Of a stretch of 64,000 bases of DNA, positions 43,508 through 64,000 are shown in pieces. Under the pieces are notes generated by a model. It searched no databases. It had not been told where the DNA came from and was given only the letters and a program-made list of their open reading frames with translations. This DNA comes from Acidobacterium sp. (GTDB lineage: Bacteria > Acidobacteriota > Vicinamibacteria > Vicinamibacterales > UBA2999): positions 124,001 through 188,000 of the forward strand of contig NSIL01000001.1 in the NCBI GenBank assembly GCA_002737365.1, read 5' to 3'. Numbering within the stretch: position 1 is the stretch's first letter; every line of letters begins with the position of its first letter. Both the position numbers and the translations under genes were made by a program.

Positions 43508-43540
43508 GCCCGTGAACTCGATGATAGCATTCTCATCGGC

Positions 43541-44704
43541 ATGAACCAGACAATCGCCACGGTCCCTGCACTGACCAGGCTGGCCGAAGATGAGACCATT
43601 TTTCGCGACAGCGTCTACGAGTTTGCCGACAAAGAAGTGCGGCCGCTGGCGCGCGAAATGGACGAGCACGCGAAGCTGTCCCCGGCCCTGCTCGAGAAGC
43701 TGTTCACCATGGGCCTGCTGAGTGTCGAGGTGCCCGAAAGCTATGGCGGCGCCGGCGGCACGTTCTTTCACTCGGTCCTCGCCGTTGAAAGCCTGTCGCG
43801 CGTCGATCCGTCGGTCGGCGTGCTGGTGGACGTGCAGAACACGCTGGTCGTCAACGCCGTCATGCGGTGGGGCACCGACGCCATCAAGAAGACCTATCTC
43901 ACCAGACTCGCCACCAACACCATTGGCGCCTACTGCCTGTCGGAGGCCGGCTCGGGCAGCGACGCCTTCGCCTTGACGACCCGCGCGGTGGAACAAGGCG
44001 ACGGCTTCGCCATCACCGGCCGCAAGCTGTGGATTACGAACGGTAACGAAGCCGACATGTTCATCGTCTTCGCCACCATCAATCCCGAAGCCGGCTACCG
44101 CGGCATCACCGCCTTCATCGTCGATCGCGGCACGCCAGGCTTCACCGTCGGCAAGAAGGAAGACAAGCTCGGCATCCGCGCCAGCAGCACCTGCGAGCTG
44201 CTCTTCGACAACTGCATCGTCCCCAAGTCGCACATCCTCGGCGAGATCGGCAAGGGCTACAAGGTGGCCATCGAGACGCTGAACGAGGGACGCATCGGCA
44301 TCGGCGCGCAGATGCTCGGCCTGGCGCAGGGCGCGCTGGACCACACCGTGAAGTACATCAAGGCACGCAAGCAGTTCGGCAAGGCGATCGCCGATTTCCA
44401 GGGCGTGCAGTTCCAGATTGCGCGCATGGCGATGGACGTCGAAACTACTCGCCTCCTGGTCTACAACTCCGCGCGCCTGCGCGACGCGGGACTGCCCTTC
44501 CTGACGGAAGCAGCGATGTGCAAGGTGTATTCGTCGGAAGTCGCCGAACGCGTCGCCTCGATGGCGATCAACCTGTTCGGTGGCAACGGCTTCGTGAAGG
44601 AATATCCGGTCGAGAAGCTCTACCGCGATGCGAAGATCGGCCAGATCTACGAAGGCACAACCAACATGCAGTTGATGACCATCGCCAAGAACATTTTGGG
44701 CTAG
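43541..44704 (+). CDS. Acyl-CoA dehydrogenase
   Basis: 387 residues, complete: CLSEAGSGSDAFALTT (FAD), ITGRKLWITNGNEADMF, GKKEDKLGIRASSTCELLFDNC, QMLGLAQGALDHTVKYIKARKQFGKAI, and NLFGGNGFVKEYPVEKLYRDAK before IYEGTTNMQLMTIA, with the catalytic Glu. The strong match in the IRASSTCEL and IYEGTTNMQ region suggests short- or branched-chain substrates, as in amino acid breakdown. Divergent from the VWFA gene across 33 bases. Its stop codon overlaps the stop of the convergent gene (CTAG). Confidence 0.93.
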   Translation: MNQTIATVPALTRLAEDETIFRDSVYEFADKEVRPLAREMDEHAKLSPALLEKLFTMGLLSVEVPESYGGAGGTFFHSVLAVESLSRVDPSVGVLVDVQNTLVVNAVMRWGTDAIKKTYLTRLATNTIGAYCLSEAGSGSDAFALTTRAVEQGDGFAITGRKLWITNGNEADMFIVFATINPEAGYRGITAFIVDRGTPGFTVGKKEDKLGIRASSTCELLFDNCIVPKSHILGEIGKGYKVAIETLNEGRIGIGAQMLGLAQGALDHTVKYIKARKQFGKAIADFQGVQFQIARMAMDVETTRLLVYNSARLRDAGLPFLTEAAMCKVYSSEVAERVASMAINLFGGNGFVKEYPVEKLYRDAKIGQIYEGTTNMQLMTIAKNILG

Positions 44705-47994: not shown

Positions 47995-48153
47995 TATCGG
48001 TGCGTGTCCTTTACTCTCAGATTTGCTACTGTCAGGGCGCCGGCGGCGTGATCACAGCGTTGCTTGTGAAGTGAACTGGAAACAGGCGTCCCGCGTAACC
48101 GATTGAGGTTACGTTACTTAGCGCAAACTGTCAAGAATCCGGGAGGATTTTGC

Positions 48154-48687
48154 ATGGCCCGCAAGAAGCCCGCACGGCCCACCAAGAAGGCTGCCAGGAA
48201 GGCCAAAAAGAAGCCAGCGCCCAAAGCTGCCGCCCGCAAGGCCGTGAAGAAAACGGCCAAGAAAACAGCCAAGAAAGCGGCCCGCAAGCCCGGCAGGAAG
48301 GTCACCAAGAAGGTCGCCAAGCCCGTGAAAAAGGCCGCCAAGAAGGTGGTCAAGAAGGCCCCAAAGGTGGCGGCGACCAAGAAGCCCAACCTCGACCGGC
48401 CGCGTAAGACCGTGGCCGACATCCACGGCATTCCATCCAGTTTGGGAATGGCGAGCCTCGCCTCGGCCGCACACTCCGGTGGCGAGGAACTGCGCGACAC
48501 CCTCAAGAAGAACAACAGTGCCAGCCCCCGGCTCCCCGACGGTGACGTCGTCGACGAAATCGGCCGCGCGCTTGGCGTGGAATACGCAGACGACGAACTG
48601 CAGGGCGGCGCGGAGATCGCCGAGCGCGACGCCCACCGATGGGAGCTCGATCCGAGTTCGAAAGACGACTTCGAAGACGAAGAGTAG
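48154..48687 (+). CDS. Histone-H1-like lysine-rich protein with C-terminal DUF6335-type domain
   Basis: 177 residues from the ATG at 48154, which has GGGAGG 8 bases upstream; an earlier in-frame start lacks a site. Residues 1-88 consist of AKK/PKK/ARK repeats (RKKPARPTKKAARKAKKKPA ...), resembling eukaryotic H1 tails and chlamydial HC1/HC2. Residues 89-177 are acidic and globular (IPSSLGMASLASAAHSGGEEL, GDVVDEIGRALGVEYADDEL, ERDAHRWELDPSSKDDFEDEE), matching the small DUF6335-type domain as I remember it. The tail should bind DNA; the domain's role is unknown. It is divergent from rpsA-HU. Confidence 0.8.
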   Translation: MARKKPARPTKKAARKAKKKPAPKAAARKAVKKTAKKTAKKAARKPGRKVTKKVAKPVKKAAKKVVKKAPKVAATKKPNLDRPRKTVADIHGIPSSLGMASLASAAHSGGEELRDTLKKNNSASPRLPDGDVVDEIGRALGVEYADDELQGGAEIAERDAHRWELDPSSKDDFEDEE

Positions 48688-48698
48688 CGTGCCAGAAG

Positions 48699-48718
48699 GG
48701 CGGAACTTTAGTGCCGCC
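48699..48718. terminator. Hairpin between convergent genes
   Basis: GGCGGAAC and GTGCCGCC pair with one mismatch around a TTTA loop, between the H1-like gene stop and the aldehyde dehydrogenase stop codon (48718-48720). A modest but well-placed bidirectional terminator candidate. Confidence 0.4.
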
Positions 48719-50094
48719 TAAGGCAGTGCAATCGACACGTACTTCACATCGAGGTACTCCTCGAGGCCCCAGCGCCCGCCCTCACGACCAACGCCCGACG
48801 CCTTCACGCCGCCAAACGGCGCGTGGGGCGTCGCCGGCAAGCCGTCGTTGACCCCGACAATCCCGTAGTCCAATGCCTCGGAGACGCGAAACGCGCGACC
48901 GAGATCGCGGGTCCAGAGGTACGCGGCCAGGCCGTACGGCGTGTTGTTGGCGGCCGCGATCACATCAGCCTCTGACGTAAAGCCGACCACCGGCGCGACG
49001 GGGCCAAACGTTTCCTCATCGAGGATGCGCATGCCGGCCGCAACATCCACCAGCAGCGTCGGTGCGAAGAACAGGCCCTGCCCCGCCTGGCCACCGACGA
49101 CCGCACGCGCGCCCTTCGCGACGGCATCGGCGACGTGCGCTGCCACCTTGTCCAATCCGGCGCGATCGACGAGGGGACCGACTTGCGTCGTGTCGTCTGT
49201 CGGGTCACCGACGCGCAGCGCACGCACGGCGTCGGACATTTTCGCGACAAAGGCGTCGCGAATCGATTCGTGCACGTAGATGCGATTGGCGCACACGCAG
49301 GTCTGCCCGGCGTTGCGGAATTTGGTGGCCATGACCTGCGCCACGGCGGCAGCGATCTCAGCGTCCTCGAACACGAGGAAGGGCGCATGGCCACCGAGCT
49401 CGAGCGAGACGCGCTTCACCGTGCGCGCGGCCTGCGCGTAGAGCAGCTTCCCCACTTCGGTGCTGCCGGTGAAGGTCAGCTTGCGCACACGCGCGTCAGC
49501 GAAGAACGGCTCAGAGACCGCGACCGGATCGGCGGTGGTCAGCACCTGGAACACGTCCGCGGGTCCGCCGGCTTCGATCCATAGCTCGGCGAGCAACACT
49601 GCGGTAAGCGGTGACTGCTCGGCGGGCTTCAGTACCACGGTGCATCCGGCGGCCAGCGCCGGTGCGACTTTGCGCGTGACCATCGCCGCGGGAAAGTTCC
49701 ACGGCGTCACCGCGTAGACCGGGCCGACCGGCTGACGGATCACGAGCAGGCGTTTGTTCGCTACGTGACTCGGCACGATGTCGCCGTAGGCGCGCTTGCC
49801 TTCCTCGGCGTACCAGTCGACGAACCCGGCGGCGTACTTCACCTCGCCGCGCGACTCGGTAATGGGCTTCCCCATCTCGCTCGTCATCAGGCGGGCGATC
49901 GCGTCTTCGTTCTTCAGGATGAGATCACGCCAGCGGCGCAGAAGGTTGGAGCGCTCGAACGCGGTCTTGGCCTTCCAAAGAGGAAAGGCGGCGACTGCCC
50001 CCTCGATCGCGTTGCGCGCATCGTCGGCGTTGGCGTTAAGGACCGTGCCGACGCTGGCGCCGGTCGCAGGGTTGATAACGTCGAATGAAGCCAT
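48718..50094 (-). CDS. gabD: NAD(P)-dependent aldehyde dehydrogenase (succinate-semialdehyde dehydrogenase-like)
   Basis: 458 residues from the ATG at 50094. The ALDH fold is complete: TPWNFPAAMVTRKVAPALAAGC, LKPAEQSPLTA, FTGSTEVGKLL, Glu in SLELGGHAPFLVF and nucleophile Cys in NAGQTCVCANRIY. The GGHAPFLVF / NAGQTCVCANRI / PFGGVKASGVGREGG combination is typical of succinate-semialdehyde dehydrogenase. A GabD role would fit if the upstream PLP enzyme makes an amine whose aldehyde is oxidised here, but that link is inference. Separated from it by a 115-base spacer holding a long inverted repeat. Confidence 0.88.
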   Translation of the reverse strand: MASFDVINPATGASVGTVLNANADDARNAIEGAVAAFPLWKAKTAFERSNLLRRWRDLILKNEDAIARLMTSEMGKPITESRGEVKYAAGFVDWYAEEGKRAYGDIVPSHVANKRLLVIRQPVGPVYAVTPWNFPAAMVTRKVAPALAAGCTVVLKPAEQSPLTAVLLAELWIEAGGPADVFQVLTTADPVAVSEPFFADARVRKLTFTGSTEVGKLLYAQAARTVKRVSLELGGHAPFLVFEDAEIAAAVAQVMATKFRNAGQTCVCANRIYVHESIRDAFVAKMSDAVRALRVGDPTDDTTQVGPLVDRAGLDKVAAHVADAVAKGARAVVGGQAGQGLFFAPTLLVDVAAGMRILDEETFGPVAPVVGFTSEADVIAAANNTPYGLAAYLWTRDLGRAFRVSEALDYGIVGVNDGLPATPHAPFGGVKASGVGREGGRWGLEEYLDVKYVSIALP

Positions 50095-50121
50095 GTTGGT
50101 CTCGATTCTAGTCCACGACGT

Positions 50122-50207
50122 TGGCCACAGAGAACACCGCGACACAGAGAACACGACCCCGCCACTGTCCGAACTGTCTTCTCTGTGAACTCTGTGTTCT
50201 CAGTGAC
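50122..50207. repeat. Long inverted repeat of CACAGAGAAC units
   Basis: The left arm (50122-50153) holds two CACAGAGAACAC units; the right arm (50178-50207) is their imperfect reverse complement (TTCTCTGTG and GTGTTCTCAGTG). Stem about 30 bp, loop about 25. It fills most of the spacer between the decarboxylase stop (50210) and the aldehyde dehydrogenase start. It looks like a dispersed intergenic hairpin element and may end the decarboxylase transcript or stabilise its 3' end. Confidence 0.55.
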
Positions 50208-50209
50208 CT

Positions 50210-51628
50210 TTACGATTTCGTGGTCGCAGCTTGCTGCATCAGCGCCCAGAGTTGTTCGACATGGACGCGTTCGGTCTGCTCTGCGCCGATCGACACGCGC
50301 ACCATCCAGCGGCCGTCGAGCATGGCCGGTGTCAGGTACGCCGCGCCAGATTGATTCACGCGGGCCACCCAGGCTTGCGTATGCAAGTCGAGTGCTTCAT
50401 CAGTGAGCCAACCAGGCTCGTGACGGACACACAACGTTTGCAGCGGCACCGGCGCCAGAACTTTCCAACCGGGCGTGGCCTTGATCTGTCCCTCGAGCCA
50501 CTCGGCGTTGGCGAGGTCGCGGCGCAAGCGTGACTGCAGCCCTTCCACCCCCTGCTCGCGAATCAGGAACCACAGCTTCAGCGCGCGGAAGCGCCGGCCG
50601 AGCGGCAGGCCCCAGTCACGGTAGTTCTTGACGCGGCCATCGGCAGCGGTCTGCAGATAACTCGGGTTGGTCGACATCACCCGCACCAGGTGTTCCGGAT
50701 CTCGAACGAAATAGAGCGTGCAGTCGAACACGGCGCCCAGCCACTTGTGCGCGTTGACGATCAGCGAGTCGGCCTGCTCGACGCCGTCCCACATGAAGCG
50801 GCACTCCGGCAGGATCATCGCTGAGCCGGCCATGGCAGCATCGACATGCAGCCAGAGACCATGCTTCGTCGTGATCGGCGCGATCGCGGCGATCGGGTCC
50901 AGCGCCGTCGAGGTCGTCGTCCCCGTCGTGAGGACCACGGCGCAGGGTTGATTGCCGGCGGCAAGGTCGGCCTGGATCAGCGCATCGAGCGCGTACGGCC
51001 GCATGGCGTAGGCCGTGTCGTGGGGCACCATGCGCACGTGCTCGCGGCCGAAACCGGTGAGTAGCGCGGCCTTTTCCACCGAGCTGTGACTGTGCGCCGA
51101 GGTGTAGACGATCAACGGCTTGGCTTCAGCCTGCAGGCCGCCGCGGCTGAGGCTGTAGTGCGTCGTTCGCTCGCGCGCGCACAGCAGTGCCACCAGCGAA
51201 CTGGTCGAGGCGGTGTCATTCAGCACGCCGCTCCACGCCGGTGACAGGCCAAGCATCTGGCGCATCCAGTCGACGGTGACCTCTTCCACTTCGGTCAGCG
51301 CCGGACTCGACTGCCAGGCGAGGCCGATCACGCCGAGGCCGGAACTGAGCAGGTCGCCCAGCAGGCTGGCGAACGTGCCATTCGACGGAAAGTAGCCGAA
51401 GAACCGGGGATGCTGCCAGTGCGTAATGCCCGGCATCACGACGCGATCGATGTCCGCCGCAATCGCCGCGAACGGCTCGCCCTGCTTGGGCGGCGCCGGT
51501 GGCAGCATCGCCTTGATCTCACCAGGCGCCGACTGCGCCATGACCGGGCGCGACTCGACGGTGGCCCGATAGTCGGCAATCCAGTCGATCAGCGCGTGGC
51601 CGGCCTGGCGGAACTCTTCGGGGGTCAT
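50210..51628 (-). CDS. PLP-dependent aromatic-L-amino-acid decarboxylase-like enzyme (group II)
   Basis: 472 residues. Landmarks: THWQHPRFFGYFPSNGTFASLLGDLLSSG, HSHSSVEKAALLTGFG (His over PLP), GTTTSTALDPI, LHVDAAMAGSAMI (Asp) and the PLP Lys in NAHKWLGAVFDCTLYFVRD. The family includes DOPA, tyrosine and tryptophan decarboxylases. The FFGYFPSN and NAHKW blocks are those of the AADC type rather than of glutamate decarboxylase. It follows cmk by a 4-base overlap, and the aldehyde dehydrogenase lies downstream. The amine formed cannot be predicted safely. Confidence 0.9.
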   Translation of the reverse strand: MTPEEFRQAGHALIDWIADYRATVESRPVMAQSAPGEIKAMLPPAPPKQGEPFAAIAADIDRVVMPGITHWQHPRFFGYFPSNGTFASLLGDLLSSGLGVIGLAWQSSPALTEVEEVTVDWMRQMLGLSPAWSGVLNDTASTSSLVALLCARERTTHYSLSRGGLQAEAKPLIVYTSAHSHSSVEKAALLTGFGREHVRMVPHDTAYAMRPYALDALIQADLAAGNQPCAVVLTTGTTTSTALDPIAAIAPITTKHGLWLHVDAAMAGSAMILPECRFMWDGVEQADSLIVNAHKWLGAVFDCTLYFVRDPEHLVRVMSTNPSYLQTAADGRVKNYRDWGLPLGRRFRALKLWFLIREQGVEGLQSRLRRDLANAEWLEGQIKATPGWKVLAPVPLQTLCVRHEPGWLTDEALDLHTQAWVARVNQSGAAYLTPAMLDGRWMVRVSIGAEQTERVHVEQLWALMQQAATTKS

Positions 51629-52290
51629 CAGATCTCGATCTTGTCGAGCAGCAACATCATCACGTGATTGACGACCACCTCGATCGGCATCTCGGTGGTG
51701 TCGATGTAGACGGCATCGGGCGCGAGCGTGAGCGGTGCGACCGCACGGGTCGAATCGGTCTTGTCGCGCGCCACCAGCTCACTTTGCACGTTGGCCAGTG
51801 TGTCCTGGCCTCCGGTGTGCGCCGTATCCGACGACCGACGCCGGGCCCGCTCCTCGGCCGAGGCATCTAGATAGATCTTCATGTCGGCGGTGGGGAACAC
51901 CACGGTCCCAATGTCGCGGCCTTCCATTACCACGTTGCCGTTGGCGCCAAGCGCCCGCTGGCGGGCGACCAGCACCTCGCGCACGCGCGGCAGGCGGGCG
52001 ACGGCGGCCGCAGCCTTGTCAGCCTCCGGGGTGCGGATGGCCCGGGTGACATCCTGGCCGTCGATCGTGACGGTGCCGCCGTGCTGCTCCAGCACGGCGC
52101 GCTCGGCCATGGCCGCAACGGCGTCTTCGTCATCGAGCGACAGCCCGTCGTGGGCAGCCTTCCACGCCACCGAGCGATACATCGCCCCGGTGTCGACGTG
52201 CAAATAGCCCAGGCGCGTCGCGAGCGTGCGGGCCAGGGTGCCCTTGCCGGCGCCCGACGGCCCATCAATCGCAATGATCAAGTTCTTCAA
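51628..52290 (-). CDS. cmk: Cytidylate kinase
   Basis: 220 residues. P-loop IAIDGPSGAGKGTLARTLA, LHVDTGAMYRSVAW, GRDIGTVVFPTADMKIYLDASAEERARRR (lid) and TIDGQDVTRAIRTPEAD as in CMP kinases. It phosphorylates CMP and dCMP. Many genomes place cmk directly before rpsA; here it is followed by the decarboxylase gene (ATGA overlap). No gene with similar direction precedes it, and a decayed region begins at its 5' side. Confidence 0.95.
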   Translation of the reverse strand: MKNLIIAIDGPSGAGKGTLARTLATRLGYLHVDTGAMYRSVAWKAAHDGLSLDDEDAVAAMAERAVLEQHGGTVTIDGQDVTRAIRTPEADKAAAAVARLPRVREVLVARQRALGANGNVVMEGRDIGTVVFPTADMKIYLDASAEERARRRSSDTAHTGGQDTLANVQSELVARDKTDSTRAVAPLTLAPDAVYIDTTEMPIEVVVNHVMMLLLDKIEI

Positions 52291-52645
52291 GCGAGTTCAG
52301 AACCTTCGTGATTGAAGGACCAGTTCATAGATCGGTGCCGACGCGTTGTTGGGGCGCGTGAAGGTGGCCAGCTTCAGGACGCACGTGTCAAGACCGACTC
52401 TCAAGATCCGGCAGCGCCGTGGCATACATGGCCTCAGGGTAAGCGATGCCGCAGCCGTAGGCAAGCTGTCGATCATCGACTACTTACCTTCGCCACCCTT
52501 GCTGAAGGCAGTGTCAACTGCAGGTCCCCTCTTTTCCCCGGTGTCCGGCGGAGGGCATTGACGGTCCCCACTTCGCTATCACCCCTATCGATAGGAGCCG
52601 CGCGGATCAGCCGTCTCCTCGCGCTGTGCCGTAAGGACGCCGCCG
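52291..52645. other. Region without a recognisable gene upstream of cmk
   Basis: About 350 bases between the cmk start and the HEPN fragment. No frame has a plausible start, ribosome site and protein-like sequence together. The cmk promoter should lie at its left end. The adjoining fragments (HEPN, M20) suggest this is eroded remnant DNA from former genes. No inverted terminal repeats were noticed. Confidence 0.4.
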
Positions 52646-53249: not shown

Positions 53250-54758
53250 CTACTTCGACATCGTCAGCAAGGCTGCAAAGATATCGATCGCTTCCCAGAA
53301 GTGGCCGACGCGAATGTTTTCATTCGCGGCGTGCTGGTTGTTGTCGAAGTTCACCACCGCCAGCCCGATCGTCGGCATGGCCAGCGTCTCGCTGAAGGTC
53401 GAGAACGGCAGGCTGCCGCCGATCGTCGGCATCTGCACCAGCCGCTGATCGAGCGCGCGGATCGCGTTGGCGGCGATCGCCGTGCGCGGATCCTCCATCG
53501 AAGTCTTGGCGATGCCGTAGCCGCCGGCACTGCGCGTCAGGCGCGCGATCAACGGATACTTTCGCCGCGTCGCGGCATCCGGCTCCTGGGTGATGACGTG
53601 GAAGCCCTGCTCACGCACGTGAGCTTCGAGACGATCGAGCTGTTTCGCGGCGCTCAAGCCATTGACGAGACGCATCTCGATGCGCGCGGACGCCGATCCC
53701 GGAATCGCCGACCGGGTCCCGGTGTAGACATTGCCTGATTCGATACCCAGCACGCTGAGTGTCGGGCGATTGTGCTGCAGCTCGATCCGGCTCTCCGGAT
53801 GCTCCTGACGCATTAATCCGAATTCCTCGAGCAGCTTCGCATCCACGTTCGGGATATCGCCAACCGCGCGCTGCTCCGCCACGGTCAGCGGCACCACGTC
53901 GTCGTAAAAGTTCTTGATGACGACGTGGTTCTTGTTGTCCTTCATCGACGCCAGTAGCTTCGCCAGTGCCATGGTCGGATCGGTGACGAAGTTGCCGTAG
54001 TTGCCGCTGTGCAAGTCGCCGTTGGCGCCGTAGACCTTGATCACGGCGCTCGCGCCGCCGCGGCTGCCGTAATAGACCGTTGGCAGGCCGCTTGGATGGC
54101 GCGGACTGTCGACAATCACCGCCAGATCAGCGCGCACCTTGTCAGCATGCTCCTTCATCGCGGGCGTGAAGTTCGGTGAACCGCCTTCCTCTTCGCCATC
54201 AAGCACGACAGTGACGTTCCACGGCAGGATGACCTTCGCCGACGCGAGTCCATCGATGGCCGCGAGAAACGCGACGATCGGTCCTTTGTCGTCAGAGGTG
54301 GAGCGACCATAGATCCGCAAGTCGGGATCGATCGGCCCGGTGATCGACTGCAGATCCACGCGCGTGTCTCCCCGGTACGCGGCAGGAACGTACGGCGCAC
54401 CGCGGGTCCATTCTTTCGGATCGCTCGCCTGGCCGTCGTAGTGGATATAGAACGTCAGCGTTCCCTTCGCCGCCGCCGCGGTCTTGCGGGCGTAAACGAC
54501 CGGGTTGCCTTTGGTCTCGAACAGCGTCACTGCGAACCCACGCTGCTCGAACATCGTGGTCAACAGCTCTGCGTTCTTCCGGATGTCGGCGCGATTCGCG
54601 GCGAGGTTTGGCAACGCGATCAGCTGCATCAATTCGGCGAGGATCTGCTGCTCGTTCTTCGCCCGCCATTCACGGACGCGAAGCACTTCCGCGGATGGAG
54701 CCGCCAACATTGACGCCGTCGTCGAGATCGCGATCAGGAGCGCAAGAGCGTGACGCAT
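53250..54758 (-). CDS. Exported M20-family dipeptidase
   Basis: 502 residues from the ATG at 54758 with a signal peptide (MRHALALLIAISTTASMLAAPSA); the frame extends further upstream without support. Catalytic features of dinuclear zinc peptidases: FYIHYDGQASDP, STSDDKGPIVAFLAA (bridging Asp), VLDGEEEGGSPNF (Glu general base plus ligand), VDSPRHPSGLPTVYYGSRG and a terminal NNQHAANENIRVGHF His ligand. It resembles carnosinase-like Xaa-His/CNDP dipeptidases, here periplasmic. The neighbouring M20 pseudogene belongs to a different branch. Confidence 0.92.
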   Translation of the reverse strand: MRHALALLIAISTTASMLAAPSAEVLRVREWRAKNEQQILAELMQLIALPNLAANRADIRKNAELLTTMFEQRGFAVTLFETKGNPVVYARKTAAAAKGTLTFYIHYDGQASDPKEWTRGAPYVPAAYRGDTRVDLQSITGPIDPDLRIYGRSTSDDKGPIVAFLAAIDGLASAKVILPWNVTVVLDGEEEGGSPNFTPAMKEHADKVRADLAVIVDSPRHPSGLPTVYYGSRGGASAVIKVYGANGDLHSGNYGNFVTDPTMALAKLLASMKDNKNHVVIKNFYDDVVPLTVAEQRAVGDIPNVDAKLLEEFGLMRQEHPESRIELQHNRPTLSVLGIESGNVYTGTRSAIPGSASARIEMRLVNGLSAAKQLDRLEAHVREQGFHVITQEPDAATRRKYPLIARLTRSAGGYGIAKTSMEDPRTAIAANAIRALDQRLVQMPTIGGSLPFSTFSETLAMPTIGLAVVNFDNNQHAANENIRVGHFWEAIDIFAALLTMSK

Positions 54759-54796
54759 GGCGTGAGTATAAAGAAAATACAAAATACAGCCACCGA

Positions 54797-55469: not shown

Positions 55470-56912
55470 ATGATCAAGCAACAGGCGCGGGCGGACGAAC
55501 AACAGACTGGCACTAGTCGCCGCCACTTTTTCAAGATGCTGGCCGGGAGTCCCCTGCTGGCGATGGCCTACCCTGGCCTGTCGCCCGCCTGGCAGCGGGA
55601 AGTCGACCGGGTATTGGCGCGTGACCAGAGCGCCAGCGGGCGGGCCACGCGGATGGTCTGTGCCGACTGCGGCCAGGCGTTCCAGCTGCCAGCGATGCGG
55701 CCGATGCGATCGTCTATGCCGCAGGCCGGCGCGCCGCAATCGCCGACGCCCAATGCGCTCGATGTGCATCTGACCGGACAGTTGATCGACGCGCCCGGTG
55801 ACGCGAGCAACGTCTGGGATTTCGAGGCGGTCGCCCATGCCAATACACTGCCGCAGCACTGGAACTACATCCACATGGGCGTCGACGACTTCGAGACGCG
55901 CTACGCGAATCGAGCGGGCTACCAGCGGCTGTCGCTTCGTCCGAAACGGCTGGGCCCGGACGTCCCCAAGCTCGACACGTCGGTGTCGCTGTTCGGCAAA
56001 CGCTGGGCGACGCCGCTGTTCCTGTGTCCGGTCGCGGCGCTCGAGGCGTATCACACCGAAGGCGAAAGCGGCGCGGCGCGTGCGGCCCGGGCGCGCGGCG
56101 TCCTGCAGATCCAGTCGCACCAGAGTTCGCAGTCCTACGAGGCGATTGCCGAAGCCCGTGGCGAGCCGCACTGGTTCCAGCTCTATGCGAATCAGGACTG
56201 GGACGTCAACAAGCGCACGATCGAGAAAGTGGCCGCCGCAGGCTGCCCCGTCCTGGTCTGGACCATCGATCTGATTGGCGGCAGCAACCGCGAGCTGTCG
56301 CGTCGCTCGCAAGGCAGCGAGGGCTACAACCGGCCGCTCTGCCAGAGCTGCCACAACCATCAGCCGGGCTACCAGCGCCCGATGCATCGCGGCGTGCAGG
56401 GCCCGCCGGGACCGCGCCCGGCCTTCGACTGGGACTACGTCAAGCGCCTGAAGGACGCCGGAAAGATGAAGGTCGTGCTGAAGGGCATCGTCACGCGCGA
56501 GGACGCGGAACTCGCTGTGCTCCACGGCGCCGACGGCGTGCTGGTCTCGAACCACGGCGGGCGCGCCGAGAACAGCCTGCGCGGCACGATCGACAGTCTG
56601 CCCGAGGTCGTCGCAGGCGTGAAGGGCCGCGTGCCGGTGATGTTCGACAGCGGCGTGCGACGTGGCGCGGACATCTTCAAGGCGCTTGCGCTTGGCGCCA
56701 CCGCCGTGGGCGTCGGCCGGCCGTACGTGTGGGGCCTCGGCGCGTTTGGCCAGCAAGGCGTCGACAAGGTGATCGCGCTGCTGCTGGAGGAGTTCACGAT
56801 GGTCATGCGGCAGGCCCGTACGGCGACGCTCGCTCAGATCGGGCCGCAGTCCGTCATGCCGGGAGCCACGCCAATCATGATGCGCGACAACCGTCAGGGG
56901 TTCGGGCTATGA
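55470..56912 (+). CDS. Tat-exported FMN-dependent alpha-hydroxyacid oxidase/dehydrogenase with CxxCH motif
   Basis: 480 residues. A twin-arginine signal, TSRRHFFKMLAG (Arg17-Arg18), is followed by a CADC pair (Cys64, Cys67) and the FMN TIM barrel: TPLFLCPVAA, IQSHQSSQSYEAIAEA, KMKVVLKGIVTREDAE, catalytic His362 in VSNHGGRAENSL, FDSGVRRGADIFKALALGATAVGVGRP. The enzyme oxidises a 2-hydroxyacid such as lactate; most relatives are cytoplasmic or membrane-bound. An insertion carries CQSCHNH (Cys291-Cys294-His295), a c-type haem signature, suggesting a periplasmic flavocytochrome. A zinc knuckle is the alternative. AAGGGAG lies 9 bases before the ATG. Coupled to the YceI gene (ATGA). Confidence 0.83.
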   Translation: MIKQQARADEQQTGTSRRHFFKMLAGSPLLAMAYPGLSPAWQREVDRVLARDQSASGRATRMVCADCGQAFQLPAMRPMRSSMPQAGAPQSPTPNALDVHLTGQLIDAPGDASNVWDFEAVAHANTLPQHWNYIHMGVDDFETRYANRAGYQRLSLRPKRLGPDVPKLDTSVSLFGKRWATPLFLCPVAALEAYHTEGESGAARAARARGVLQIQSHQSSQSYEAIAEARGEPHWFQLYANQDWDVNKRTIEKVAAAGCPVLVWTIDLIGGSNRELSRRSQGSEGYNRPLCQSCHNHQPGYQRPMHRGVQGPPGPRPAFDWDYVKRLKDAGKMKVVLKGIVTREDAELAVLHGADGVLVSNHGGRAENSLRGTIDSLPEVVAGVKGRVPVMFDSGVRRGADIFKALALGATAVGVGRPYVWGLGAFGQQGVDKVIALLLEEFTMVMRQARTATLAQIGPQSVMPGATPIMMRDNRQGFGL

Positions 56913-57463
56913 CCCGGCGGGCCCTCGTCTTCGGCGTCGCGTTCGTCGTCTTTCACGGCGCGGGCGCGGCGGCACAGTCGTCCACCGTGGAGTTCACGGT
57001 GTCGGGTAGTTCGACCGTGCGCAACTGGACGTGCACGGCGCAGGGCGTGATCGCGGTCACGCCGGCGACATCCGCCGCGCCGGTGCCGGGATTCGCCACC
57101 GGCGTGCAGGCCGCCACGGTCACCGTGCCGCTCACGGCCTTCAAGTGCCCCAACGACGAGATGACGCAGCACCTGAACGAGACAATGAAGTCGGGTGAAT
57201 TCCCCGAGATCGTCTATCGCCTCGAGAAGTATGCCGTAGCCGGCGCACAAGCGCAGGCCACCGGTACGATGACGATCACCGGTGTATCGAAGCCCGTGAA
57301 CATGCCGGTGACACTCACGTCCTCCGACAAGGGCGTGCTGGTCGAGGGCAACACGCGTCTCGAGTTCGCGACATTCAACCTGGAACCGCCGGCCGTGTTC
57401 CTGGGCATGCTGAAGGTCGGACCCCAGATTCGCATCAGCTTCAAGGGCACGATCGCGCGTTAA
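56909..57463 (+). CDS. YceI-family periplasmic lipocalin-like protein
   Basis: 184 residues: signal peptide to GAGAAAQ, then the YceI beta-barrel (VEFTVSGSSTVRNWTCTAQG, KSGEFPEIVYRLEKY, GTMTITGVSKPVNMPVTLTS, LEFATFNLEPPAVFLGMLKVGPQIRI). YceI barrels hold a long hydrophobic ligand; known crystal structures contain polyprenyl chains. Its start overlaps the oxidase stop, so the two are made together. It ends 235 bases before the rhodopsin gene. A role in carrying a quinone, isoprenoid or retinal is a hypothesis from position only. Confidence 0.85.
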   Translation: MTRRALVFGVAFVVFHGAGAAAQSSTVEFTVSGSSTVRNWTCTAQGVIAVTPATSAAPVPGFATGVQAATVTVPLTAFKCPNDEMTQHLNETMKSGEFPEIVYRLEKYAVAGAQAQATGTMTITGVSKPVNMPVTLTSSDKGVLVEGNTRLEFATFNLEPPAVFLGMLKVGPQIRISFKGTIAR

Positions 57464-57698: not shown

Positions 57699-58481
57699 AT
57701 GGCTGTTCTCATTCGAGGAGTCGCCTGCCTGGCGGCCCTCGCCACGCCTGGTATTGCCTACGCCGAAGTCGGAACCGTCCTGCGCCCCGACGACTTTGTC
57801 GGTATTTCGTTCTGGCTCATTTCCATGGCCCTGATCGCGGCCACCGCCTTCTTTTTCCTCGAGACACAGCGGGTTGCGGGAAAGTGGAAGACGTCGCTGA
57901 CCGTCTCTGGCCTGGTCACGCTGGTTGCCGCCGTGCACTACTTTTACATGCGCGAAGTGTGGGTCACGACCGGCAGCACGCCGACGGTGTTTCGCTACAT
58001 CGACTGGCTGATTACCGTGCCGCTGCTGATCACGGAGTTCTACCTGATTCTGTCGGCGATCGCGAAGCCGCCGGTTGGCATTTTCTGGCGATTGATGGTC
58101 GGCATCTTCGTCATGTTGGTATTCGGCTACCTCGGCGAAACCGGCTACATGAGCGTGTGGCCGGCTTTTATCGTGAGCATGGGCGGCTGGCTCTTCGTGA
58201 TTTATGAGATCTTCGCGGGCGAGGCGAGCCGGATGAGTGCCGCCCACGCGCCGGCCTCGGTGCAGTCCGCTTACCAGACCATGCGGCTGATCGTGGTGTT
58301 TGGCTGGGCGGTCTATCCGATTGGCTATTTCCTTGGGTATCTGACGGGGGGCAACCCGGCAGACAGTTCGAACGCCCTGAACATCGTCTACAACCTCGCC
58401 GACGTGCTCAACAAGATCGCGTTTGGCGTCGTCATCTGGTCGGTGGCGGTTAGTGAGTCCGAGGCGGCAGCGGCCAAGTAA
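57699..58481 (+). CDS. Proteorhodopsin-type light-driven proton pump
   Basis: 260 residues, seven helices after a cleavable-looking leader (MAVLIRGVACLAALATPGIAYA). Against the marine green proteorhodopsin the alignment is nearly gapless: proton acceptor Asp102 in RYIDWLITVP, Thr106, proton donor Glu113 in LLITEFYLIL, so the helix C motif is D-T-E of an outward proton pump; His80 (VAAVHYFYMR) partners Asp102 and Lys239 (NLADVLNKIAFG) holds retinal. The tuning residue is Leu110, predicting green absorption. Phe157 (WPAFIVS) occupies the site that is Gly in antenna-binding rhodopsins, so a carotenoid antenna is unlikely. GGAG lies 8 bases before the ATG. blh follows after 3 bases. Confidence 0.96.
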   Translation: MAVLIRGVACLAALATPGIAYAEVGTVLRPDDFVGISFWLISMALIAATAFFFLETQRVAGKWKTSLTVSGLVTLVAAVHYFYMREVWVTTGSTPTVFRYIDWLITVPLLITEFYLILSAIAKPPVGIFWRLMVGIFVMLVFGYLGETGYMSVWPAFIVSMGGWLFVIYEIFAGEASRMSAAHAPASVQSAYQTMRLIVVFGWAVYPIGYFLGYLTGGNPADSSNALNIVYNLADVLNKIAFGVVIWSVAVSESEAAAAK

Positions 58482-58484
58482 GCC

Positions 58485-59372
58485 ATGCCGCCGAAACTGG
58501 AACGCGCCGCTCGGATTCAGGGCCTGGTGTTCTGCATCTTGGCGGCTTGTACCAGTGTGGCCTCCTGGGGGTTGCCGCGCCTGGCGCCGCCGGTCGAGTT
58601 GGGCCTCCTGGTCGGTCTGATCGTGACCGTCGGCGTTCCCCACGGGGCGGTTGATTCCGCCTACCTGTCGCTGTCGTTCCAGATGTCGCGCTGGCGCGAG
58701 TGGGCGGCCTTTGCGGCCCGCTACCTGGCTCTTGCTGCCGCCGTGCTGGCACTGTGGGTCGTGTGGCCCGCCGTTGGTCTTGGCGCGTTCCTGTTCATGT
58801 CGGCGGTCCATTTTTCCGGGGACCCGGTTCGCGGCGCCACCATGGCCACCCGAGCACTGCAGGGCAGCGCCGTGATCGTGCTGCCGGCGCTGTGGCATTC
58901 GGTCGAGACCGAAATGATGCTCGGATACCTGGCGGGGGCGTCGGCCGCTGCCCGGTGCCTGAGTGTGCTTCAACCCTTGGCGCTCCCGCTGGCACTCGGT
59001 CTTGGCCTGGCTGCAGTGGTCGAACTGCGCCGTGGCCGCGTGTTCGTCGCGGCCGAAGCCGCTGCCACTGTCATGGTGGCCATTGCGGCACCACCGCTCG
59101 TCGGCTTCACCGTGTATTTTTGTGGCATGCACAGCGCTCGGCACCTGTTGCGCACGGCTGAGCGCGCGCGCCTGTCGTGGCTGCGGTTGGCGCTGGTGGC
59201 CTGTGTGCCCATGCTCGGTACGGTCGCGACTGGCTTCGTGGCCTGGCGCCTAATGGCCCAACTGCCGGTGGATGCCGTGGCGATCCGGATCGTCTTCATC
59301 GGCCTGGCCGCGCTCACTGTGCCCCACATGGTCATCGTGGAGCGCGTGCGGTTCGCCCGGCTGGCAGCCTGA
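58485..59372 (+). CDS. blh: Beta-carotene 15,15'-dioxygenase, Brp/Blh family
   Basis: 295 residues, a polytopic membrane protein. The iron ligand/active-site histidines of the family are all visible: His53 in VGVPHGAVD, His109 in SAVHFSGD, His138 in ALWHSVE, His216 and His220 in YFCGMHSARH and His281 in VPHMVIVE. It splits beta-carotene into two retinals, which the opsin gene 3 bases upstream would bind. The tight spacing implies one transcript. Carotene itself must come from enzymes mostly outside the window (the polyprenyl synthase at 61.3 kb is one step). Confidence 0.92.
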   Translation: MPPKLERAARIQGLVFCILAACTSVASWGLPRLAPPVELGLLVGLIVTVGVPHGAVDSAYLSLSFQMSRWREWAAFAARYLALAAAVLALWVVWPAVGLGAFLFMSAVHFSGDPVRGATMATRALQGSAVIVLPALWHSVETEMMLGYLAGASAAARCLSVLQPLALPLALGLGLAAVVELRRGRVFVAAEAAATVMVAIAAPPLVGFTVYFCGMHSARHLLRTAERARLSWLRLALVACVPMLGTVATGFVAWRLMAQLPVDAVAIRIVFIGLAALTVPHMVIVERVRFARLAA

Positions 59373-59465
59373 GTCGGCCGTCTTCAGTCGATCTTGAGCA
59401 GTGGCCGCGTGGGACAGTGGCCGCGAAACCGGTGCTCCAGTTCCTGCGTCATAATCGTGGAAAAA

Positions 59466-60191
59466 ATGGCTGTGCCCGACATCTCCTTCATCGTTCCGGC
59501 CCATAACGAAGCGCAGTTGCTGGGGCAGACCCTGACTGCCCTGCACGTCGCGGCGCGCGCGGCGGAAGTGTCGTACGAGATCGTGGTCGCCGACGACGCG
59601 TCCACCGACCGCACGTCCGCCATTGCCTCGGCGCACGGCGCCACCGTCGTCCGTGTGGCACATCGCCAGATTGCGCTGACCCGGAACGCCGGTGCGTCAG
59701 TGGCGCGCGGCACGCTGCTGGTGTTTGTGGATGCCGACACCATCGTCCCGGCCGAGACACTGCGGGCGACACTGACGGTGTGGCGGGCAGGGGCGATTGG
59801 CGGTGGCGCCAGCGTGCACCTGAACGGACGCCTGCCGTGGTCGGCGCGGCTGGCGCTGCATCCGTTCCGGTTTGGCATGCGCGTGGCGCGGCTCGCCGCC
59901 GGCTGCTACGTGTTCTGCACGCGCCAGGCATTCGACGCCGTCGGTGGCTTCGACGCCCGGCTCTTCGCTGGCGAGGAACTCGCCTTCAGCCGCTCGCTAT
60001 GGACGCAGGGCCGCTTCATCGTGCTCCGCGAACGCGTGGTTTCGTCCGGCCGTAAGTTGCGGACCCACTCCGCCTGGGAGGTGTTCACGCTCGTGCTCAG
60101 CAGCGTCATCCGCGGCCCAGCGGTGGTGCGCAGCCGAAAGCATCTCGACCTCTGGTACGGCGACCGGCGCCATGACCCCGACGCTGCCTGA
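59466..60191 (+). CDS. Glycosyltransferase family 2 protein
   Basis: 241 residues from the ATG at 59466 (MAVPDISFIVPAHNEAQLL); a 72-base in-frame extension upstream looks unlike the family. GT-A features: FIVPAHNE, VVADDASTDRTS, TRNAGASVARG, metal-binding DAD in LLVFVDADT, and GGFDARLFAGEELAFSRSL. A hydrophobic stretch (FGMRVARLAAGCYVFC) may touch the membrane. It transfers a sugar to an unknown acceptor; beside the carotene/retinal genes a carotenoid or lipid acceptor is possible but unproven. It lies 93 bases after blh, which may still be the same unit. Confidence 0.83.
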   Translation: MAVPDISFIVPAHNEAQLLGQTLTALHVAARAAEVSYEIVVADDASTDRTSAIASAHGATVVRVAHRQIALTRNAGASVARGTLLVFVDADTIVPAETLRATLTVWRAGAIGGGASVHLNGRLPWSARLALHPFRFGMRVARLAAGCYVFCTRQAFDAVGGFDARLFAGEELAFSRSLWTQGRFIVLRERVVSSGRKLRTHSAWEVFTLVLSSVIRGPAVVRSRKHLDLWYGDRRHDPDAA

Positions 60192-60272: not shown

Positions 60273-60851
60273 TCAGCGGCCCTGGCCACGAAGCACCCTG
60301 ACCCACGCTACTTCCAGCACGAACGGGCCTGGTCTCTTCTCGGCCAGCAGGAAACCGATCGACATGACGCTGCGGGGATCGACTGCGCCCGCTCCCCGCA
60401 CGACCTCGCCGAACGAGGTGGCCTCGAACCGGTCCATCGGGATAGCCACCTCGATCCACTCGCCCGCGCGGGTCGGCACCGGCGCCCGATATGATAAGGC
60501 CCTCATCTGCCTTGCCGTGTAGAGGTTCAACTGATACTCACGCCCGTCGCCACGCACGCGCGACACGAGAGTGTCGCCAGCCTGCAGGCCGAGCGTCCGG
60601 GGCCGCGACCGCACCGAGGCGAAGCCGCCGTTGTTCTCCAGCGACAGCGTCCCGTAAAACTCCAGGGTCTGGCGTTCGGTCATCCTGAATCGGCCGTCGG
60701 ACACGCCGCCCATGACGCCGTCGTTTACGGCCTGCCACCCTGCGGCCGCGTCGGGCGACACGAACGCAAAAAGCGGGAGTTGTGGCGCCTGAGCGATCAA
60801 CGAAATACCCATCAGAGCGACCACCGCTGAAACCAACATCACGCGACTCAT
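60273..60851 (-). CDS. CIA30-family exported protein
   Basis: 192 residues: signal peptide MSRVMLVSAVVALMGISLIAQA, then the CIA30 beta-sandwich with its signature WQAVNDGVMGGVSDGRF, LENNGGFASVRSRP, GDTLVSRVRGDGREYQLNLYT and IGFLLAEKRPGPFVLEVAWVRV. The family is named for a mitochondrial complex I assembly factor; bacterial copies are often periplasmic and also occur near photosynthesis and flavin genes. A GTG three codons upstream is an alternative start. Convergent with the glycosyltransferase gene. Confidence 0.85.
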   Translation of the reverse strand: MSRVMLVSAVVALMGISLIAQAPQLPLFAFVSPDAAAGWQAVNDGVMGGVSDGRFRMTERQTLEFYGTLSLENNGGFASVRSRPRTLGLQAGDTLVSRVRGDGREYQLNLYTARQMRALSYRAPVPTRAGEWIEVAIPMDRFEATSFGEVVRGAGAVDPRSVMSIGFLLAEKRPGPFVLEVAWVRVLRGQGR

Positions 60852-61322
60852 CCAAATCACCCCGTACTAAAAACACGATGCGGAGTTTACATTTCGCAGA
60901 CCTGAGTAGTCGGACGCTGGCGGGCCCCCACCAGGTCCATGGCCAGCAAGCCCACCCGGCCGGGGATAGACTTCAGGACGTGACCCTGGAGTTTGGACCG
61001 ACGGTCACCGATGAGCGCGCCTGACTGCTGTTCGCGCACGCGCACGAACTGGCGACGGGGCCGGAGTTCGAGCGGTGTTTCCGCTTGCTCACCGATCGGC
61101 ACCCTTACCTCGACACGTTCGTCCGCGCCGTCTCCTGCGGTCTCTTTCGCATCGACATCGTGCGGTACTTTCACGTCATCCGCTTCCAAGAGGTCCGGCA
61201 GTGGGTTCCGAGGAGCCACGCTGAGCCACGGCGCCTAGCGAGATCTGCCCACGGACATCGTCGGCGTGCCGGCGAATCGCCCCCACGTCGGCAGCCGCGA
61301 ACGGCTCGCACGCCGGGCCATC
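60852..61322. other. Gene-poor stretch with a possible decayed reading frame
   Basis: 470 bases between CIA30 and the polyprenyl synthase stop. A plus-strand frame from about 60878 reads through SLHFADLSSRTLAGPHQVHG, meets a TGA at 61022-61024 and goes on as LLFAHAHELATGPEFERCFR then HPYLDTFVRAVSCGLFRIDI. The protein-like part after the stop suggests a gene broken by a stop codon, but I cannot name it. The promoter of CIA30 should lie near its left end. No RNA gene was recognised. Confidence 0.3.
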
Positions 61323-62336
61323 TCAGCAGCGTCGCTCGACCACCCAGCGGGCGATGTTCATCAGGTGACCGCTCGGCAGGCCCGCGCTGACCAGGGCGTG
61401 CTCGGCGCGCGCGATGCTGTCTGCCGCCATCTCGCGCGAGCGGTCGAGACCATGCATCGCCGGGTAGGTGACTTTCCCCGTCGCGCGATCCTTGCCTGCC
61501 GTCTTGCCGAGGTCAACCGAGCTGCCTTGCACGTCGAGAATGTCGTCGACGATCTGGAACGCGAGGCCGATCTCTCCGGCGAAAGCGTCAATCGCGTCCA
61601 CCTGCGCCGGCGTCGCACCCGCCATGATGGCCCCGGAGGTGGCCGCGGCGCGGATCAGCGCGCCCGTCTTGCGCGCGTGCATGTCGCGCAGCGTGTCCGC
61701 GTCGAGCGGCGGCAACGGGTGGTGCGGCGCCGTGATGCGCCCGGTGTATTCCAGGTCCATCGCCTGTCCGCCCAGCATGCCGCCGGCGCCCACCGCCTGT
61801 CCCACGCGGCCCATGACGCGCAGCTTGCGTTCGGTGAGCTGCGGCCGGCCGGCATCGCACGGCTCGTGGGCCAGCAGGGCGAACGCTTCGGCCAGCAGAC
61901 CGTCGCCGGCCAGGATGGCCAGGCCATCGCCGTAGATCACGTGCAGGGTGGGGCGGCCGCGCCGCATGCTGTCGTTGTCCATCGCCGGCAGATCGTCGTG
62001 CACCAGCGAGTAGGTGTGAATGAGCTCCACGGCACAGGCCGCGGGCATCGCCTGCAGCCAGGCTTCCTGAACGGCCGCCTCTGATGCGGGCCGCGCGGCG
62101 CTGGCCACCGCGTCGGCGGCGGCCAGCGTCAGGATCGGACGCAACCGCTTGCCGCCGCTGCCGACGGCGTAGCGCATGGCCTCGGCGACCAGGGCGGGAC
62201 AGACGGGCGGTCGCGGCAGCACGCGGTCGAGTGCCGCCTCGATCTCGACGCGTCGGGCCGCGACATAGTCCGTGAAGCTTTCGCTGCCGGTGTGTGTGTC
62301 CGTTGTCATGATCGTCCCATTGTCGTGCACGGTCAT
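61323..62336 (-). CDS. Polyprenyl diphosphate synthase (farnesyl/geranylgeranyl type)
   Basis: 337 residues (328 if the ATG at 62309 is used). First Asp-rich motif [10 protein letters not shown], second VDDILD, plus [24 protein letters not shown] and [14 protein letters not shown]. It joins isopentenyl diphosphate units in the cytoplasm to give C15-C20 diphosphates. The helix before the first motif reads [15 protein letters not shown], with small residues that would allow FPP or GGPP; the exact chain length is uncertain. The start overlaps the ABC permease stop (ATGA). GGPP would feed carotene and thus retinal synthesis for the rhodopsin 3 kb away. Confidence 0.9.
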
Positions 62337-63565
62337 ACCGTTTCCCACCGCCGCGCCAGGAGGCGCGCGGCAGCCCATCCCGCAAGTCCGACGATCGTGA
62401 GTGTCATGGCCGCCGGCAGTACCGCTGTCCAGGCGCCGCCTGCGTGCAGCGCGCGATCGAATCCCTCGATGGCCCATGCATTCGGCGTGGCCCAGCCCGC
62501 CTGCTGCAGCCACGGCGGCATCAGGAAGCGGGGCACCATCGAGCCACCGATCGCCGACACCACTAGTACGGCCACGTTCGAGACGGTGTGCGACTGCCGT
62601 GCCGTCTGGCACAGCGTGGCCACGAGCAACGTGAGTCCCGCCGAGGCCAGGGCCAGGCTCGCGGTGACGATCGCCCACGGTCCGACCCGCGCCGGCAGGT
62701 CCACTCCGTATGCGAGCCACGCCACGCCGAAGATGAGGGCAACCTGCGCCAGGCCCTGCGCCACCAGGAACAGCGCGCGGCCATCCACCAGGGGACCCAT
62801 GCCGCCTGGTCCGGCCAGCACGCGGTCGACGATGCCCGAATCGCGATCGTCGTGCAGGCTGCTGGCGCCATGGACGGCCGAGAGCAGGACGAACATCGCC
62901 GCCACCGCGCCCGCGTAGTACGCCACCTGATCGAGCGCGGCGCCGCCGGAGGACGACTGGCGCTGCTCGACCAGCGCCGCGAACGGCCCCAGGTCGTCAC
63001 TGGCGTCGTCGCCAGGTTCGGGCGCGAGCTGGTCGAGCTGCGCGTCGGCCTCGACGCGCTGCTCGCCGGTCAGTTCGACAATCGACTCGTCCACCAGCGT
63101 CACGACGCCGCGCAGGGCCGCGTCTGGCAGTCGTGAGAAATAGAGCCGCTGGACCGTGCCGGTGAGCAAGGCGCCCGCGACGGCGCGGGCCGGATGCGTG
63201 ACCACGACGATCGGTGCCGGGCCCTCGCCAACCAGCTCGTCCAGACCCCGCCCGCCTCGCCGGATTACCAGTCCAGCGTCGGCCGCGCCACTGGCGACCG
63301 CGGCGTCCACGGCCGCCGCGTCTGCTCCGCGCGCGACCACCCGCAGGTTCGCGCTCGAGGTCACCGCCTCGATGAGCCTCATGGAGAGCGCCGAGCCCAC
63401 TTCGTCGGCCAGCGCCACGCGCAGCCGCAACTGTTCGCCCGTCGCGCCGCCAAAGATGGCCGCGAAGATCGCAAACACGATCACCGGCAGCGCGAAGCTC
63501 ATGACGAGCGCGCCGCGATCCCGCCACAGGGCCAGCGCCAACGATTGCAGCACCGCGCGCCTCAC
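62333..63565 (-). CDS. ABC-2 type transporter permease
   Basis: 410 residues: an N-terminal helix ([20 protein letters not shown]), a large periplasmic domain of about 170 residues and five or six C-terminal helices ([41 protein letters not shown]). This is the YhfB/YbhS-NatB shape of exporter permeases. The GTG at 63565 overlaps the ATPase stop (GTGA), and its stop overlaps the polyprenyl synthase start. So the order is ATPase, permease, synthase in one transcript. The exported compound is unknown; a lipid or drug is typical. Confidence 0.88.
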
Positions 63566-64000
63566 GACACCTCCGCTGTGCCGGTGAGCACGGCGATGGC
63601 GCCGCGCAGGCTGGGTTCACGCAGCCGCGCTTCGGCCACCCGCACGCCGGCCGCCAGCAGGCGCTGTTCGGTGGCGCCGAGGTCGGCCAGGCTGTGGCTC
63701 GCGGACCGGACCCAGGTATGCCCGCCGGCCTGCCTGAACCCCTCGGCCTCGAGCGCGCGAGCCGAGCCGTCTGGTCCGGCCTCCACCGAGACCGCCAGCT
63801 CGCGGCCGTCGCTGAAGGCGCGGGTGACGATCTCGGCCAGGGACCCGTGGGCGAGCACTCGCCCCTGGTGCATGACCACCACGTCGTCACAGATGGCGGC
63901 GGCTTCATCGAGGTTGTGCGTGGAAACCAGCAGGCCCATTCCGTTATCCCGCAAGCTTCTGAGCAGCGTGTGCAGGCGCGATTCCGACTCCGCGTCGACA
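63562..64000 (-). CDS. ABC transporter ATP-binding protein, C-terminal part
   Basis: The frame is open to the right edge, so Walker A, signature and Walker B lie outside. The visible 145 residues start just after Walker B with the D-loop region ([19 protein letters not shown]), then the H-loop [12 protein letters not shown] and [18 protein letters not shown], followed by a 75-residue C-terminal domain seen in ABC-2 exporter ATPases. Coupled to the permease by a 4-base overlap. An internal TTG at 63954 is not the real start. Confidence 0.88.

Follow-up and report, generated by a model that had tools for sequence, protein, structure and literature searches.

The window analysed here (the whole 64,000-nucleotide stretch, G000:C1:124001-188000, from a contig, C1, of 223,387 bp), taken together with the next 4.6 kb of that contig, probably encodes a working acidobacterial retinal photosystem assembled from an imported opsin-blh pair and the family's own carotenoid module, a reading to which we assign a probability of roughly 0.87. 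The imported unit would consist of a proteorhodopsin gene followed by blh, and the family's own unit of a CrtE-like synthase gene with two ABC genes, arranged divergently from crtY-crtI-crtB and a CrtZ-like gene (Table 1). Judged from sequence, these ~11 kb hold a likely enzyme for each step from prenyl diphosphate to retinal, plus the pump. In the scheme that we propose, CrtE, CrtB, CrtI and CrtY would produce beta-carotene, Blh would convert this to retinal, and retinal would bind Lys239 of the opsin, with green light then driving proton export via Asp102 (acceptor), Glu113 (donor) and His80; presumably, beta-carotene would reach Blh before the CrtZ-like enzyme consumes it. We expect the system to be expressed, and its most likely role is to support a heterotroph as a green-light proton pump that contributes to the proton motive force and whose retinal supply is encoded in the same genome. 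Acidobacteriota are mostly thought of as dark-living soil bacteria. The initial annotation had called the source a probable acidobacterium, and this assignment holds; the genome (G000) comprises 3.05 Mb in 54 contigs and is 97.08% complete and 0.69% contaminated.

Table 1. Features of the locus and its edges, in window coordinates unless prefixed C1; window-equivalent (w.e.) positions lie beyond the right end of the window.
Feature	Position	Strand	Evidence or remark
cmk, last gene of conserved left flank	51628..52290	-	Pfam, NCBIfam, synteny
GAACCTTCGTG, island left edge	52300..52310	+	By-eye motif, then counted
M20 peptidase, island passenger	53250..54764	-	Pfam; relatives elsewhere in congeners
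FMN-dependent (lactate-type) dehydrogenase, island passenger	55470..56912	+	Pfam, NCBIfam
YceI-like protein, island passenger	56909..57463	+	Pfam
Proteorhodopsin, 260 aa	57699..58481	+	ORF list, Pfam, tree, residue mapping
Blh, predicted beta-carotene dioxygenase, 295 aa	58485..59372	+	ORF list, Pfam, NCBIfam, alignment, AlphaFold
Glycosyltransferase family 2, in island, outside pump	59394..60191	+	Pfam, NCBIfam
CIA30-domain protein, in island	60273..60860	-	Pfam; 79% relative elsewhere in congener G348
Short-chain polyprenyl diphosphate synthase, CrtE candidate	61323..62309	-	Pfam, NCBIfam; start codon approximate
ABC-2 type permease	62333..63565	-	NCBIfam, family module comparison
ABC ATPase	63565..64000, on to about w.e. 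64617	-	Module comparison
crtY-crtI-crtB-crtZ-like	w.e. 64489-68579	+	Divergent from ABC ATPase
crtY	C1:188489-189631	+	Lycopene beta-cyclase equivalog model
crtB	C1:191186-191962	+	Best NCBIfam model CrtB
CrtZ-like ORF	w.e. 68103-68579	+	Histidine clusters, relatives in family modules
GAACCCTCGTG, right-edge partner motif	w.e. 69490-69500		Motif count

The opsin matches the Pfam family Bac_rhodopsin (E 1.5e-42), whereas a profile scan against NCBIfam returned no match for it; its N-terminus looks, by eye, like a signal peptide. Its best relatives of solved structure are green proteorhodopsins (E 1e-85; PDB 8cnk, 2l6x and 7b03, i.e. GPR), and alignment places H80, R99, D102, T106, L110, E113, D235 and K239 on GPR H75, R94, D97, T101, L105, E108, D227 and K231, respectively, such that each of the eight diagnostic residues checked in GPR numbering is also present in the window opsin. 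The DTE motif of helix C is thus formed by D102, T106 and E113, H80 is the equivalent of His75, and the residue at GPR position 105 is the leucine of the green type. The Schiff-base lysine K239 lies in helix G with the aspartate D235 four residues before it, and both are kept in 86/86 aligned rows. The initial annotation, made from the letters alone, had listed D-T-E, His80, Lys239 and a leucine at the tuning site; these readings are confirmed, and the numbering of His80 and Lys239 proved exact, since the two residues map onto GPR H75 and K231. Its description of a complete green-type proteorhodopsin with an accompanying Blh is likewise supported by the residues and by the Pfam and NCBIfam results. 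The further statement that the opsin is a very close match to marine proteorhodopsin was, however, too strong: despite the shared diagnostic residues only 133 of 227 aligned residues (58.6%) are identical to marine GPR, compared with up to 78% for rows from other phyla, and the nearest named relatives are mostly metagenome-assembled genomes (MAGs) of other phyla.

The blh gene starts three bases beyond the opsin gene on the same strand. Its product matches Pfam BCD (E 2e-38) and passes the NCBIfam model blh_monoox (TIGR03753) with 159 bits against a cut-off of 95.25. Histidines 53, 109, 216 and 281 are kept in 48/48 aligned rows and His 220 in 47/48 (47 of these rows are distinct, L031 and L097 being one contig), in agreement with the earlier statement that all expected histidines are there; we take the conserved histidines to be the iron ligands. 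An AlphaFold model, computed from an alignment of 36 rows (the window Blh and 35 of 46 listed), is helical and confident (pLDDT 93.6, pTM 0.91). A profile search with Blh found no relative among PDB sequences, and a fold search with the model against the PDB gave 283 matches at E up to 10, of which none had E <= 0.001. Cleavage of beta-carotene to retinal is the predicted activity of this protein.

The claim that the pump would have its own retinal supply is borne out at the level of the genes, and more fully than the window itself reveals, as crtY, crtI and crtB begin 0.5 kb past its right end and reach to ~4 kb, on the strand of the opsin. CrtY scores 409 bits against the cut-off of 215 of the lycopene beta-cyclase equivalog, and CrtI 700 bits against 238 for the phytoene desaturase family; for CrtB the top model is CrtB, but the score lies below its cut-off (319 versus 480). 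Neither Pfam nor NCBIfam gave a match for the CrtZ-like gene; its product has histidine clusters that are presumably of CrtZ type, and four family genomes (G213, G385, G401 and G325) encode 71-80% relatives in their modules. The synthase passes the FPPS model (299 versus 275 bits) and falls below the cut-off of the CrtE model (291 versus 460). Two other prenyl synthases are encoded in the genome, an FPPS-like copy on contig C15 and one of long-chain type on C51, and the synthase resembles the C15 copy in having a tyrosine five residues before the first Asp-rich motif. Its identity is accordingly unsure, but CrtE of the carotenoid module is the most likely one, because the synthase recurs in crt modules of the family and a separate FPPS-like copy exists on C15. 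The synthase is present in seven of the eight family modules examined, the eighth (G399) being cut by a contig end, and the permease adjoins it in six of these seven; the exception is G420, the only one of the seven in which the ABC genes do not accompany the synthase.

The phylogenetic positions of the two units differ. In a tree of 86 opsins, whose named rows are the best 80 of at least 579 relatives (L031 was dropped as the same contig as L097, from genome G385), the opsins of G000, of a second genome of the genus (G213) and of another member of the family (G385) form a clade with that of a contig titled Oligoflexia (L041; support 100/99); this clade is nested in a wider group that also takes in Proteobacteria, Verrucomicrobiota, Gemmatimonadota and others (93/91). 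As L041 is only 3,994 bp long, its Oligoflexia label may be a binning error. The clade recurs at 98 SH-aLRT in a reduced tree of 57 rows (29 of the 86 left out), and on this 57-row set a single clade of the three acidobacterial opsins was not rejected (p-AU 0.179). A placement with sensory types had been named as grounds for doubt; the opsin lies among proteorhodopsins with the pump residues, in a tree without sensory opsins. In the tree of Blh sequences (47 rows, after removal of L031 and of L038, which is short), the G000 Blh groups with those of G213, G385 and one MAG (97/89), near Burkholderiales and Verrucomicrobiota rows, a placement touched by long-branch and composition warnings for the G000 sequence. 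CrtI behaves differently: in a tree of 57 rows built by a quick method, excluding matches shorter than ~380 residues, L048, and the loci L031, L097, L004 and L005, which gave no CrtI match, the eight sequences of the family fall into a single starred clade, separate from the remaining 49.

Gene order agrees with this division. Among the best 80 named loci, blh was found in 46, and in 43 of these crt genes stand between opsin and blh; the opsin is directly followed by blh in L016, in L022 and in L031, which is from G385. What G000 has in common with other phyla thus appears to be confined to opsin-blh and, since opsin and Blh group with the cassettes of other phyla whilst CrtI stands apart, the imported pair seems to have been plugged onto the carotenoid module of the family. 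Of the earlier suggestion of transfer from another phylum, the grouping with other-phylum opsins therefore stands, and the direction is one that we infer.

Comparison with congeners places both units in an island. The rpsA-ALDH-AADC-cmk block (window 46216-52289 at least) is syntenic in four of them (G398, G348, G107 and G285; 74-92% identity). In G285 this block is followed, after 196 bp, by a block of a hydrolase-like ORF and rluB, which in G000 begins only at window-equivalent 69531; with the flanks so close together in G285, G000 carries ~17.2 kb that are absent there. In G107 the two blocks are separated by ~7 kb of different DNA; in G348, a search of the 8.7 kb beyond the cmk block did not recover the right block, and the G398 contig stops 2.3 kb past cmk, before the right block is reached. 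We consider it probable that the 17.2 kb were gained in G000 rather than lost in G285. The cargo consists of the M20 peptidase, the FMN dehydrogenase-YceI pair (a pairing also seen in opsin-less genomes), opsin-blh, the glycosyltransferase, the CIA30 protein and the carotenoid module, and because the M20 peptidase, FMN dehydrogenase-YceI and CIA30 protein have relatives elsewhere in congeners the island is a mosaic. No integrase or transposase was found among those island genes that were scanned with Pfam, a scan that passed over some small ORFs. Within 82.4 kb of C1 the short motif GAACCNTCGTG has exactly two copies, at 52300 and 69490, i.e. at both edges of the island; it was first spotted there by eye and tested afterwards, with one copy in the 64-kb window against 0.13 expected and an occurrence in 13 of 100 shuffles. 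At the same junction G348 has nine copies, G285 six and G107 one, and the G398 contig none; stray copies are a seventh, elsewhere in L214, and one on contig C45 of G000 (L096).

Carriage on a mobile replicon was also considered for this region, and no phage match was obtained; of eight plasmid records none exceeded 37% identity. Elsewhere in the window, a 1,484-residue ORF (437-4891, plus strand) combines an RND pump (PF00873, residues 3-1008) with a PF02321 outer-membrane efflux domain from residue 1075, a fusion believed to be unusual, and a 987-residue ORF (41381-44344, minus strand) has no Pfam match at E 1e-8.

Both units show unequal divergence between acidobacteria when set against core genes (for rpoB, DNA identities and frame-checked codon distances). 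G213 and G385 belong to different genera, with 82% DNA identity and dS 0.66 in rpoB, whereas their opsin-blh regions are 89.8% identical over 1,850 bp, from 58 bp before the opsin to 17 bp after blh, and their crt modules 89.3% over 7,384 bp; dS is 0.24 for the opsin, 0.38 for blh, 0.24 for crtI and 0.30 for crtY, lies at 0.24-0.40 for seven genes, and reaches 0.59 for crtB. In G385 the two units are on different contigs. Between G000 and G398 the crt module is 98.5% identical over 5,688 bp, with dS of 0.02-0.04 for five of its genes as against 0.22-0.87 for four core genes, and the match ends at window position 61204. There G398 continues with a gene (L145, 3-1100) encoding a photolyase FAD domain, and this gene stands in place of the CIA30, glycosyltransferase, blh and opsin genes of G000; over 242 bp it matches a proteorhodopsin locus of Verrucomicrobiota (L047) at 74% DNA identity. 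The G398 contig could be misbinned, the difference then lying within the species of G000. Taken together, these codon distances suggest that both units have moved between acidobacteria by transfer.

A history of a different kind would make the photosystem an ancient possession of the family that most members have lost, and the empty site of G285 a deletion, and would involve no recent import into the G000 lineage; it is in our view rather unlikely, though it accounts for several observations. In both G000 and G213, opsin-blh lies in one neighbourhood with the crt module and FMN dehydrogenase-YceI, and the opsins of the two genomes (dS 0.95) are about as distant as the FMN dehydrogenase (0.81) and YceI (0.93) genes (Blh 1.64, near saturation; rpoB 0.42), so that for the opsin descent within the genus serves as well as transfer; the p-AU value given above is also compatible with common descent. 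Yet 40 of the 43 genomes of the family (26 of the 29 of good quality) gave no opsin match, which would necessitate many losses, and the opsin-blh pairs of G000 and G213 are oppositely oriented. Moreover, the crt genes of G000 and G398 and both units of G213 and G385 are far closer than core genes, which argues for transfer at least within the family.

That the opsin-blh stretch came from another bacterium by a binning or assembly artefact is barely credible. The genome is in 54 contigs, the nearest named opsins are mostly from other phyla, and the opsin has the lowest total GC (0.605) of 15 genes measured; against this, GC3 of the pair is ordinary (opsin 0.81, blh 0.80, versus 0.817 +/- 0.036 across 30 ORFs, a crude reference set to which both genes belong), so the proposed check of base composition against the neighbours gave a divided answer. 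The initial annotation had also named a contig break near 55-57 kb as a possible sign of contamination; there is none, the stretch lying inside the 223-kb contig with a left flank syntenic with four congeners and a right flank syntenic with two, at 74-92% identity, and contamination was judged unlikely on these grounds. Two other genomes of the family have this pair as well; in one of these the neighbouring genes are also shared and the pair is in reverse orientation. We regard it as quite improbable, too, that the opsin acts as a light sensor, or as a weak pump for signalling rather than energy. Function is predicted from sequence, which leaves room for such a role; nevertheless the opsin retains both Glu113 as donor and Asp102 as acceptor, it groups with proteorhodopsins that keep both, and no transducer was seen among the neighbouring proteins scanned.

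Beyond the assembled photosystem that we favour for G000, a wider proposition, to which we give about even odds, is that retinal phototrophy in this family is a removable two-part kit. The carotenoid module and the opsin-blh pair would travel separately between species and genera, and a lineage would become photoheterotrophic when both meet, as here in an island edged by the motif; the island would occupy an insertion hot spot between cmk and rluB, which is vacant in G285, holds other DNA in G107 and contains the whole photosystem in G000.

The distribution of the genes was surveyed across the phylum and the family. Ten of 396 genomes sampled across the phylum gave an opsin match. One of the ten is G000 itself, and the close opsins are those of G213 and G385, at 76-77%; four more, in G182, G324, G238 and G315, are distant, those of G182 and G324 (genomes of 1.2 Mb) at 35-36%; and three matches (G237, G136 and G381) are fragments or chance, those in G136 and G381 looking like chance on inspection. 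The distant opsins of G238 and G315 (L006/L007), from other families, have lysine in place of the donor glutamate (DTK), so that at least three types of opsin seem to be present in the phylum. In G237, of the same order and another family, 42 columns (L008, 1501-1626) are 67% like helix C of the opsin and are interrupted by a stop and a one-residue insertion; this stretch is perhaps the relic of a lost proteorhodopsin.

Within the family, opsin and Blh occur in the identical 3 of 43 genomes (for the opsin, 3 of 29 with completeness >=90% and contamination <=5%), and a full-length crtY match in eight of the 43, all three opsin-blh carriers included; two more crtY rows, short and weak matches, stand outside the eight. 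Co-occurrence of opsin-blh with crtY gives a Fisher p of 0.0045 over the 43 genomes, which are not independent. G398 gave no opsin or blh match, but it is 80% complete and its contig ends near the site. The carriers G000, G213 and G385 have genomes of 3.05, 4.0 and 3.1 Mb; those of the opsin-less congeners G107, G167, G285, G348 and G396 are larger, at 4.7-5.9 Mb, and the less complete opsin-less G397 and G398 measure 3.2 and 2.8 Mb. Of the earlier remark that such a pump is uncommon in this group, rarity within the family is upheld, whereas for the phylum a proteorhodopsin of another acidobacterial genus was published in 2024, according to the available part of that report (PMC11561045).

An acidobacterial proteorhodopsin is thus already known, and G000 is a better-equipped new case. 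Among the literature matches listed, that 2024 report is the one devoted to this subject. Rhodopsin genes from Arctic lake mats have also been assigned to Acidobacteria, as far as the consulted portions of the sources go (PMC6288179; cited in PMC8071047). The available part of PMC5459899 contains no acidobacterial rhodopsin, the main texts of a rhodopsin survey (PMC9601134) and of a Lake Tanganyika paper (PMC8245535) do not contain the string 'acidobacteri', and Vicinamibacter together with rhodopsin gave no match in the literature searched; neither an acidobacterial opsin-blh pair nor this island appears among the matches listed, which cover few subscription journals.

Proteorhodopsin photosystems spread between phyla, and in most of the loci compared (43 of 46 with blh) they take the form of whole cassettes. 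G000 allows a photosystem to be compared with the unoccupied site of a congener; the part that it shares with other phyla appears to be the opsin and the last enzyme only, and beta-carotene would come from the family's own pathway, so that the steps of gaining light use become testable. The canonical opsin-crtE-crtI-crtB-crtY-blh cassette of Proteobacteria and Verrucomicrobiota (the opsin-crt-blh order is described for the latter in the accessible text of PMC10284914) has the same opsin type, Blh family and expected chemistry, and its members group with the window opsin and Blh in the trees. However, its crt genes, of the same origin as the opsin, form one run between opsin and blh, whereas in G000 opsin and blh are adjacent, and a module native to the family and set apart from the pair contains the crt genes, in a divergent E-ABC-ABC / Y-I-B-Z-like layout and with a CrtI of a separate clade. 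The 2024 case, Acidiparvus (UBA12189, Holophagaceae), shares with G000 the phylum, the DTE motif and Leu105 (PMC11561045, as available); its opsins belong to a different clade, probably that of the distant opsins of G182 and G324. Whilst the accessible text of the same report states that crtY, crtI, crtB and crtE are absent from all Acidiparvus MAGs, G000 has crtY-crtI-crtB and a CrtE candidate, and would thereby provide the Acidobacteriota with a proteorhodopsin accompanied by its own encoded retinal supply.
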